Assembly: GCF_900102185.1 (NCBI RefSeq)
Contig: NZ_LT629690.1
Span: 3,472,001-3,536,000, forward strand
DNA length: 64,000 bases
Direction of reading: 5' to 3'
Source: Terriglobus roseus
GTDB lineage: Bacteria; Acidobacteriota; Terriglobia; Terriglobales; Acidobacteriaceae
Numbering within the stretch: the first letter of the stretch is position 1; each line of letters starts with the position of its first letter. This document shows, piece by piece, positions 5,818 to 7,653 of this stretch. Below the pieces are notes generated by a model, which saw only the letters and a program-made list of their open reading frames with translations, searched no databases and was not told the DNA's origin. Made by a program: the position numbers and the translations under genes.

Positions 5818-5859
5818 TTTGGCACACAACCTGCTCTAACGAAAGGCGGGAAGAGCGTG

Positions 5860-6056
5860 CGGATAGGTGCTGCTGGCAAAGCTGGTAGCCCAATGCACCA
5901 AGACCACCGGCCCGGCGATGCAGACCGCGCCAGATTCGAGACCTAAAGAGGTCCGAACTGAGCAGACGGCGCCCCGGCCACCGGCAGCAAGACCCTTTAG
6001 GAGGCCAGTGATGGCCATTAAGATCGACGAAACGGCCACCCAGAGTGGCCGTTTTC
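5860..6056 (+). ncRNA. Candidate structured non-coding RNA, family not recognised
   Basis: About 200 bases between divergent genes fold, by eye, into nested stems that end in a terminator. GCTGCTGGC (5869-5877) pairs with GCTGGTAGC (5881-5889) with some GU pairs, flanked by GGTGC/GCACC (5866-5870, 5895-5899). GCGCC (5927-5931) pairs with GGCGC (5968-5972) around a hairpin of TTCG+GACCT with AGGTC+CGAA (5935-5957, loop AAAG). GGCCA/TGGCC (6003-6016) and the terminator follow. I compared it from memory with SRP RNA, 6S RNA, RNase P RNA, tmRNA and common riboswitches and found no match. The strand is chosen from the U-run after the last stem. Ends are approximate. Confidence 0.45.
6030..6055 (+). 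terminator. Rho-independent terminator of the candidate ncRNA
   Basis: CGGCCAC (6033-6039) pairs perfectly with GTGGCCG (6045-6051) around a CCAGA loop; flanking AAA/TTT extends the stem to ten pairs. TTTT at 6052-6055 makes this a plus-strand terminator. It stands about 560 bases before the next plus-strand start, so it belongs to the RNA upstream and not to that gene. Confidence 0.7.
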
Positions 6057-6073
6057 CGTTGGAGGAATTTTAA

Positions 6074-6100: not shown

Positions 6101-6129
6101 TTGCATACCGTCGCTGATACGCGTAGAGT
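6101..6129 (+). promoter_or_regulatory. Possible sigma-70 promoter for the gene at 6616
   Basis: TTGCAT (6101-6106) and TAGAGT (6124-6129) are separated by 17 bases. Both match the consensus only partly. If used, transcription would start near 6136 and give a leader of about 480 bases before the ATG at 6616. Confidence 0.35.
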
Positions 6130-6615
6130 GGTGTTGCCTGATGAACCGGCTGAGCATGGCCCACGCATTTCGCCTGGGTAGCCGCTCGCTGAAGATCGCA
6201 GGCAGGAACGAAATCATTTAGACACTGAAAGTGAATTCTCTCCGTCCGGCCCGGATTTCGTGTGCCGAGGACAGAGAGCAGAAGATAAGGCGCAGAGAAC
6301 CGCTCGGCACCACATCCTTTATTTCGTTTGTGTGCCAACCGTCTCCGGCGACCTTCAGATGCAAGCCGAAATACCAAACGCTGTCGCGATGCAGCGGCAT
6401 GCACAGGCAACGAACTGCACAAGGATTCCGGGACGAAACAGGCAAAGATGTTGCCCTTCTCCCGCAGGATTTCGAGTTAACGCTTGAGACGCATTTCCCT
6501 TCTGAACGCATCCCGTGTCTGCCGGCTAAACCGGCACCCGTAACGAAGGCGGCTAAGAACCGCCAGAAGAGTCCTGTGCGCAACAAACACAGGACCTGAG
6601 ACAGAAAGAAGAAGC
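6130..6615 (+). promoter_or_regulatory. Long leader with three tandem hairpins before the disordered/receiver gene
   Basis: No convincing gene lies here. The last 100 bases carry three hairpins in a row: TGCCGG/CCGGCA (6520-6536, loop CTAAA), GGCGG/CCGCC (6548-6564, loop CTAAGAA) and GTCCTGTG/CACAGGAC (6571-6595). The first two share the sequence GGCTAA running from stem into loop. The ATG at 6616 follows a purine-rich GAAAGAAGAAG stretch, not a clear SD. None of the three has a U-run, so they look like protein- or ribosome-facing leader elements. A 122-codon GTG frame at 6231-6599 overlaps but has no SD and no recognisable protein. Confidence 0.45.
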
Positions 6616-7653
6616 ATGAACGCAGAGCAACTGAACTTCCCCGAGCCCAATGTTGCCGTTGTGGCTCCGACGTCTTCCTCACCAGCCGGCGAGGAGGGCG
6701 CATCGAATGGCGCTCCTGGTGGAGCTGCTGGAAAGAGCCGCCGCCGTCGCCGCAAGCGCAAGAACCGCCCCGCCGGTGCAAATGGCGAAGCAGGTACAGC
6801 GCCTCAGGCAGCCGCCAGTGCAGAGGGTGGCGAAGCCGCTGCTCCTGCGCAGAACACCAACCAGCAGCAGCCCCGCCAGAACAATGGCCAGCAGCAGGGT
6901 CAAGGCCAGGGTCAGGGCAAGCGCTGGAAAAAGAAGAAGCACGGTGGACGTGGAGATGGTCAGCCCCGCCCCGAGCCGGGCAACAGCCTGCAGGGCAGCA
7001 ACTCTGGCATGGGCAATCGCGGCCGCAACCGCAAACAGCAGCAGCGCGGACCGCGCTCGTTCGTGGGTCCCATGGACCACAGCTACCGCGAGGTAAACGG
7101 CAACTTTGCCGATACCCCGGCCAGCACCATTGAGATCCATGGCAACCACCGGTCGCGGCAGAATAACCATCGCAACCACCACTTCAACGAAGACCGACTG
7201 CCGCCCGAACTGATGCACAATCAGCGCGCTGTGGCCATCCCGGAAGATGCGCCCACGCACATCTACTTCTTCATTGAAGACCTGTTCTTCACCGCGAAGA
7301 TTCAGGAGACGGCACGTCTGCAGGGTGTGAAGGTCGCGTTCATGAAGCCGGAAAAGGACATCGTGGCACATCTGGCGGAACTGCCAGAGCACGATCATCC
7401 GTCGCTGATTGTGTTCGATCTGAACAACGCCAACGCGAAGCCGCTGACGCTGATTCCGAAACTGAAAGCCAAGTTGAAGAAGGGCACCTCGATCATTGGC
7501 TTCCTCTCGCACCTGCAGGGCGACCTGAAGGCCAAGGCAATGGAAGCGGGTTGCCACTCTGTGATGCCGCGTGCGGCTTTCTCGCAGAACCTGCCGAACC
7601 TGCTGCGCCGCTATGGTGTGGAAGACGAGCACGAGCCAAACTTCAACATGTAA
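6616..7653 (+). CDS. Basic low-complexity region fused to a receiver-like domain
   Basis: A 345-residue protein in two halves. Residues 1-200 are disordered, with a run of Arg/Lys at 40-49 (KSRRRRRKRK), Gln/Asn/Gly tracts around 81-103, KRWKKKKHGGRG at 102-113 and RGRNRK at 135-140, a composition seen in RNA-binding tails such as that of RNase E. Residues 214-335 look like a CheY-type receiver: strand HIYFFIED with an acidic pair, PSLIVFDLNN with Asp268 at the phospho-acceptor site, and IIGFLSH. The usual Lys of a receiver is missing (VMPRAAF), so it may not be phosphorylated. No output domain follows. It follows a long structured leader and is ended by a terminator, so it is probably a single-gene unit. 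RNA binding is inference. Confidence 0.65.
   Translation: MNAEQLNFPEPNVAVVAPTSSSPAGEEGASNGAPGGAAGKSRRRRRKRKNRPAGANGEAGTAPQAAASAEGGEAAAPAQNTNQQQPRQNNGQQQGQGQGQGKRWKKKKHGGRGDGQPRPEPGNSLQGSNSGMGNRGRNRKQQQRGPRSFVGPMDHSYREVNGNFADTPASTIEIHGNHRSRQNNHRNHHFNEDRLPPELMHNQRAVAIPEDAPTHIYFFIEDLFFTAKIQETARLQGVKVAFMKPEKDIVAHLAELPEHDHPSLIVFDLNNANAKPLTLIPKLKAKLKKGTSIIGFLSHLQGDLKAKAMEAGCHSVMPRAAFSQNLPNLLRRYGVEDEHEPNFNM

Follow-up and report, generated by a model that had tools for sequence, protein, structure and literature searches.

Within the window, the 64,000-nucleotide stretch of DNA that was analysed as a whole, one gene encodes a 345-residue protein in which a long basic, disordered tail is joined to an atypical receiver carrying arginine in place of the conserved lysine, and upstream of this gene lie a σ54-type non-coding RNA gene, here RNA (a), and a conserved leader block, here domain (b). 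Our tentative reading, to which we give a probability of roughly 0.4, is that the protein, with its atypical receiver, is an adaptor that binds nucleic acid, and that its gene has a leader of its own and lies next to a σ54-driven RNA. For the protein, it draws on the receiver fold and its structural matches, the Arg-for-Lys replacement, the basic tails and a motif kept inside a region of low predicted order; the leader and the adjoining RNA enter it because of the linkage of RNA (a) to the gene, the σ54-type site, the covariation in the terminator and the way domain (b) stays with the gene. The genome that holds the window is complete (4.85 Mb).

Table 1. Features upstream of and within the receiver gene, in window coordinates.
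Feature	Positions	Strand	Basis
σ54-type -24/-12 site TTGGCACACAACCTGCT of RNA (a)	5819..5835	+	consensus site; scored over 108 loci
RNA (a), non-coding RNA gene of ~200 nt	5846..6055	+	presumed start; end set by terminator
Conserved hairpin GGA-GGCCA-GUGA-UGGCC (also GUGA(C)) in RNA (a)	6000..6016	+	pairs kept
Terminator hairpin of RNA (a), ACGGCCAC...GTGGCCGTTTT	6030..6055	+	covariation
Promoter-like TTGCAT-17-TAGAGT before domain (b)	6101..6129	+	hexamers nearly kept
Leader domain (b), a conserved 5' portion of the region before the gene	6130..6320	+	three species; 36 loci
Conserved element TTTCGAGTTAACGCTTGAGAC..., second promoter or leader element	6470..6515	+	recurs in relatives
Three hairpins enclosed by a closing stem, GGCTAA in the first two	6516..6603	+	folding z -4.4; window and two closest species
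Protein, basic disordered tail and atypical receiver, 345 aa	6616..7653	+	open reading frame
Basic cluster SRRRRRKRK, residues 41-49	6736..6762	+	Arg43-46 invariant in 73 aligned proteins
Linear motif FVGPMDHSYR, core PMDHSYR, residues 149-158	7060..7089	+	alignment
Atypical receiver with Glu221/Asp222, Asp268, Ser298 and Arg319	7246..7620	+	fold, profile, aligned rows

Relatives of the protein are present in 19 of 19 genomes of the genus and in 195 of 200 genomes of the order, the latter divided between family f1 (183 of 186) and family f2 (12 of 14). The full-length protein matches no Pfam family, DNA-binding or other, up to E 1, and thus contains no known RNA-binding domain. Its two halves differ in composition: residues 1-205 have a pI of 11.4, with 31 Lys and Arg against 16 Asp and Glu and with R/K/Q/N/G/P/S making up 64% of the residues, and residues 206-345 have a pI of 6.7. 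In the full-length AlphaFold2 model the ten-residue means of pLDDT over residues 1-190 are as low as 36-55, and together with the pI this agrees with the preliminary description of an Arg/Lys/Gln-rich, disordered basic half.

AlphaFold2 gives the C-terminal half the β1α1...β5α5 arrangement, the (βα)5 fold of a canonical response regulator, with a mean pLDDT of 87 and a pTM of 0.83. Prediction of this structure and a search with Foldseek, proposed earlier as a check of a receiver-like half, returned just that: nearly all of the structural matches listed are receivers, of the ordinary kind as well as the degenerate ones of CpaE and TadZ, and a flavodoxin-like domain and a channel also fall below E 0.001. 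A receiver-like half is thus supported by its fold and by the family profile, and it does keep Asp268 and have Arg319 at the place of the receiver Lys, as described earlier. Lys at this position is the usual, defining residue of receivers, and its role is established. The phospho-acceptor Asp268 is found in 30 of 30 rows from the order and 37 of 40 wider rows; at the Lys position, 29 of the order rows and 35 of the wider ones have Arg, and 1 and 3 have Lys. Over all 70 rows Asp268 is kept in 67, Asp222 in 68 and Ser298 in 61; Lys is missing from 66, of which 64 have Arg. One of the 40 wider rows (L187, G068:C31) comes from an f1 genome and represents a second, divergent copy of the receiver half there.

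Sequence profiles place the receiver half in a family that spans the Acidobacteriota and in which Arg mostly takes the place of Lys. When 30 C-terminal halves were scanned singly, 13 reached Response_reg at E≤0.1 (best 6.4e-6), and the half from the window did not reach Response_reg at E 0.1. At E≤0.001, a profile built from the 30 members has matches in 118 of the 396 phylum genomes, the matches listed outside f1 lying mostly within short open frames; several f2 relatives are receiver-only open frames of ~143 residues. Against solved structures, the profile finds mostly receivers at weak E-values, the best match being a designed protein (0.0021) followed by VraR (0.013). The protein thus resembles the PF00072 receivers in its fold, acceptor Asp, acidic residue and Ser at the switch position, and differs from them in the Arg that replaces the conserved Lys and in the added basic, disordered tail with its kept motif.

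Family f1 has this tail added to the receiver, together with its Arg cluster and PMDHSYR. In 73 aligned proteins of nearer relatives all ten residues of FVGPMDHSYR are invariant. Across 165 rows the PMDHSYR core or a near form of it occurs in 152 (exact in 144) and the first three residues, FVG, vary; the core is absent from 13 rows, namely the 12 of f2 and that of L101, in which the open frame starts past the place of the motif. A DNA pattern for the core matched 84 of 100 genomes of the order, with 85 matches in total (two in G101), and none of 14 f2 genomes; matches were counted wherever they fell in a genome, and the backward control matched four genomes. Across the tails measured, 141 with duplicates counted, the pI has a median of 10.7 and never drops below 9.36, and the length ranges from 84 to 353 residues. 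The motif itself has block means of 52 and 55 in the full-length AlphaFold2 model, with no confident place and no docking. Protein alignments exclude L018, which has two in-frame stops, and L020, a duplicate; genomes fetched twice (for example L004 and L091) are still counted in the totals of 143 and 165 rows. The L018 orthologue (G008), whose frame is interrupted by two TAG codons and whose genome is in 410 contigs, is either a broken gene or an assembly error.

A basic tail is able to bind RNA without a known RNA-binding domain; tails that are basic and disordered also have DNA, membranes or proteins as targets. Most likely, we infer, the tail binds nucleic acid through the Arg cluster, RNA being likelier than DNA, and a partner through PMDHSYR.

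RNA (a) was matched upstream of the gene in 111 of 143 loci, and 108 of these were used, at 454-1312 nt before the start codon, after removal of L078, L141 and L147, which were judged false by eye. Promoters of the -24/-12 type read by σ54 have the consensus GG-N10-GC. The site ahead of RNA (a) has this form; in 102 of the 108 loci its score is 9 or more out of 12, against 1.3% of mononucleotide-shuffled regions, and a stricter pattern is found in 60 of 111 loci against 1.3% in the control. An rpoN domain is encoded in 95 of 100 genomes of the order, that of the window included. The span 5850-6070 folds with a z of -3.75. In the 3' module, an alignment of 77 loci (the list was cleared of L086, L011 and near-identical rows, and ten of 87 rows were left out by eye as divergent) keeps the four predicted pairs of the 6000-6016 hairpin in 76-77 loci, and all nine pairs of the terminator show double compensatory changes. 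A generic terminator scan of the window copy alone did not pick up this terminator. At the gathering score, none of 4227 Rfam families matched the window or 18 loci, and lax matches, the best of them at E 0.47 and 0.51, fell on the terminator hairpin and were taken as chance. Overlapping the end of RNA (a) is an open frame of 20 codons (6011-6073, + strand) that has a good ribosome site and is probably non-coding, since its ATG is missing in many relatives.

Searched against 200 genomes of the order, a model of the 3' module (R1) gave 75 matches at E≤1e-7. Of these, 72 share the strand of the receiver gene and lie within 4 kb on its upstream side. This figure leans towards linkage, since the copies used to build R1 were ones adjoining the gene, and many genomes in the search had themselves supplied such copies. 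Among weaker matches (E 1e-7 to 2.1e-3) 18 of 40 are adjacent to the receiver gene. The three unlinked strong copies, in G044, G110 and G122, have σ54-type sites scoring 12, 9 and 12 and look like real RNA (a) located elsewhere. A separate exact pattern gave 107 matches in 89 of 200 genomes, 68 near the gene and 39 not, with matches in 7 genomes for its backward control; from the 13 distant matches most like RNA (a), 10 were fetched and yielded the three real copies, and the other seven (L222-L228) were rejected on σ54-type scores of 6-8 of 12 and no terminator by eye. RNA (a) was unmatched upstream in 32 of 143 loci, most of which encode proteins with another N-terminus that retain the tail and motif; the strict σ54 pattern occurs in 3 of the 32. 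As RNA (a) is unmatched in these loci and unlinked in three genomes, the protein needs no adjoining RNA (a). RNA (a) is tied to the protein by position only; it is a separate gene, whose product may be a partner or regulator of the same pathway.

From about position 6130 the upstream region is nearly identical in three species in which the surroundings differ, and, to judge by this conservation, a leader of the gene begins here that is distinct from the GGCTAA hairpins discussed below. The TTGCAT and TAGAGT hexamers just before it are nearly kept in the three species (TAGATT in one) with a diverging spacer, and other genera have a promoter-like counterpart, CTTGCCAA...GTACCCT; a scan with the E. 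coli consensus did not find the site at 6101-6129. Domain (b) was at first suggested to be confined to the three species, a view overturned by matches in other genera, where a related block lies 343-636 nt before the gene. Matches were obtained at 43 of 143 loci, and 36 were retained after by-eye removal of seven, all with 4 errors and judged false by context; nine of the retained matches also have 4 errors. Among the matches listed, 13 exact ones and 4 with one mismatch are all upstream of the gene, by by-eye comparison, and those with two or three mismatches are mostly away from it. Two of the genomes with RNA (a) elsewhere have (b) before the gene, as an exact match in G110 and as a 4-error match in G122, where the block and its counterpart in L114 share 79% identity over 276 nt; in G044, where RNA (a) is also unlinked, no (b) was seen. 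The predicted structure of (b) has double changes in 8 of 24 pairs over 21 sequences, a modest covariation. Nearer to the gene, many relatives have a stretch like 6470-6515 at 100-150 nt ahead of their start codon; this element, more widely conserved than (b), could be a second promoter.

The preliminary description had seen three hairpins before the gene, two of them sharing GGCTAA, and had proposed a post-transcriptional autoregulator that would bind such elements with an RNA affinity set by its receiver half. The hairpins are present in the window as described (6521-6535, 6548-6564 and 6571-6595, closing stem 6516-6520/6599-6603). The span 6516-6615 folds more strongly than 200 dinucleotide shuffles, and wider spans fold less distinctly, with z of -2.6 for 6460-6615 and -1.6 for 6130-6615. 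Strong folding is no trait of the family, since 126 distinct 120-nt leaders have a mean z of -0.82 (SD 1.28) and only 16.7% fall below -2. Among the leaders printed, the arrangement occurs in the window and its two closest species. In this trio every one of the 69 pair cells holds a standard pair, and the third hairpin accounts for the 2 double changes; as many as 99 of 500 shuffles do equally well, which makes this weak evidence for conserved hairpins. The stems are kept in the trio, and the paired motifs read GGCTAA/GGCTAA in the window and GGCCAA/GGCTAA and GGCTAA/GGTTAA in the others. GGCTAA occurs in the last 110 nt of 6 of 143 leaders (some genomes counted twice), where about 3-4 would be expected by chance; they are the trio, L070, L124 (two copies) and L133, so that the count beyond the trio is 3 of 140. 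Folded alone, L070 forms one hairpin with GGCTAA spanning stem into loop, and neither copy in L124 spans stem into hairpin loop. Edaphobacter-type leaders, L030 and L094 among them, have a short hairpin, AATTGCG...GCAAT, directly 5' of the ribosome site AGGAAG. Pairing of a conserved leader stretch with the Shine-Dalgarno site was dropped by eye, as it is not kept across clades.

The genes around the receiver gene differ by clade; the linkage of RNA (a) to the gene is therefore not simply that of one frozen operon, and conserved neighbours were dropped as a functional clue. In the loci from other Acidobacteriota (L168-L207, neighbours named by eye), the receiver gene is often near a gene of metallo-β-lactamase fold (11 of 40 loci), and a forkhead-associated domain gene is nearby in 11 of 40 as well. 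A lack of Hfq was rejected as a reason for the protein, Hfq being present in 59 of 60 genomes of the order.

Of the preliminary interpretation the receiver-like half therefore stands, and autoregulation through GGCTAA hairpins fails because the hairpins are not kept beyond the three closest species. That the protein binds these hairpins is highly improbable: they are real in the window and kept in its two closest species, but they were not seen in the leaders of other orthologues, and even within the trio the two motifs are not both kept. A single-domain response regulator that can be phosphorylated, with Arg standing in for Lys, is distinctly improbable; the high conservation of Asp268, Asp222 and Ser298 speaks for it, whereas the near-general loss of Lys speaks against it, as does the failure to see a histidine kinase among the conserved neighbour clusters named by eye, in which a Ser/Thr-kinase-like cluster is found in 9 of the 40 wider loci.

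The tail and the fold bear on two further explanations. A DNA- or nucleoid-binding protein, the tail coating DNA and the receiver half dimerising, would suit the high pI, low complexity and Arg cluster of the tail and the occurrence of a relative in nearly all genomes of the order; we consider it unlikely, given that no Pfam family, DNA-binding or other, is matched and that the kept motif exceeds what a charge tail needs. Equally doubtful is a protein adaptor that binds no nucleic acid, like the degenerate receivers of CpaE and TadZ; its motif would be a docking site for a partner, and its charges would serve to hold the tail in solution. Foldseek does return CpaE and TadZ structures, and f2 and wider relatives are mostly tailless, but all 141 tails measured are basic, and the fold does not choose such a role because ordinary receivers rank equally high.

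Atypical receivers are already known as a class, and the degenerate receivers of CpaE and TadZ work outside the classical phosphorelay. The protein described here shares the receiver fold with these two, which are among its structural matches, and differs from them in lacking an ATPase domain and carrying a basic tail instead. In E. coli, GlmY and GlmZ use σ54 promoters. As an idea, the arrangement resembles RapZ with GlmY/GlmZ, an RNA-binding protein paired with small RNAs (PMC7073468); RNA binding by the present protein is a prediction. RNA (a) resembles Acido-1 RNA (RF01686) in so far as that is presented as a candidate non-coding RNA of Acidobacteria (PMC2864571); no match at the Rfam cut-off was obtained, and RF01686 may not be among the 4227 families searched. 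In the literature covered, outside which lay most subscription journals and all preprints, nothing was recognised as a system of this receiver with RNA (a).

In the favoured reading, a nucleic-acid-binding adaptor, the basic tail would hold nucleic acid through its Arg cluster, RNA being likelier than DNA, and PMDHSYR would dock a partner. The receiver half would serve as a docking or dimer module that is weakly phosphorylated or not at all, and expression would be set from the conserved leader starting near 6130. RNA (a) next door would be transcribed separately by σ54 as a possible partner or regulator. The narrower proposal of a receiver acting on RNA, whose tail binds RNA, which works with the adjoining σ54 small RNA and which is controlled by its own leader, we regard as quite unlikely in this full form. 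An atypical receiver is present in nearly every genome sampled from the order, with a near-invariant motif in its disordered tail. Should the tail bind RNA, this would be a receiver acting post-transcriptionally and would offer a testable RNA-protein pair for a soil lineage; even if it does not, the RNA gene and the motif are concrete items that can be checked.
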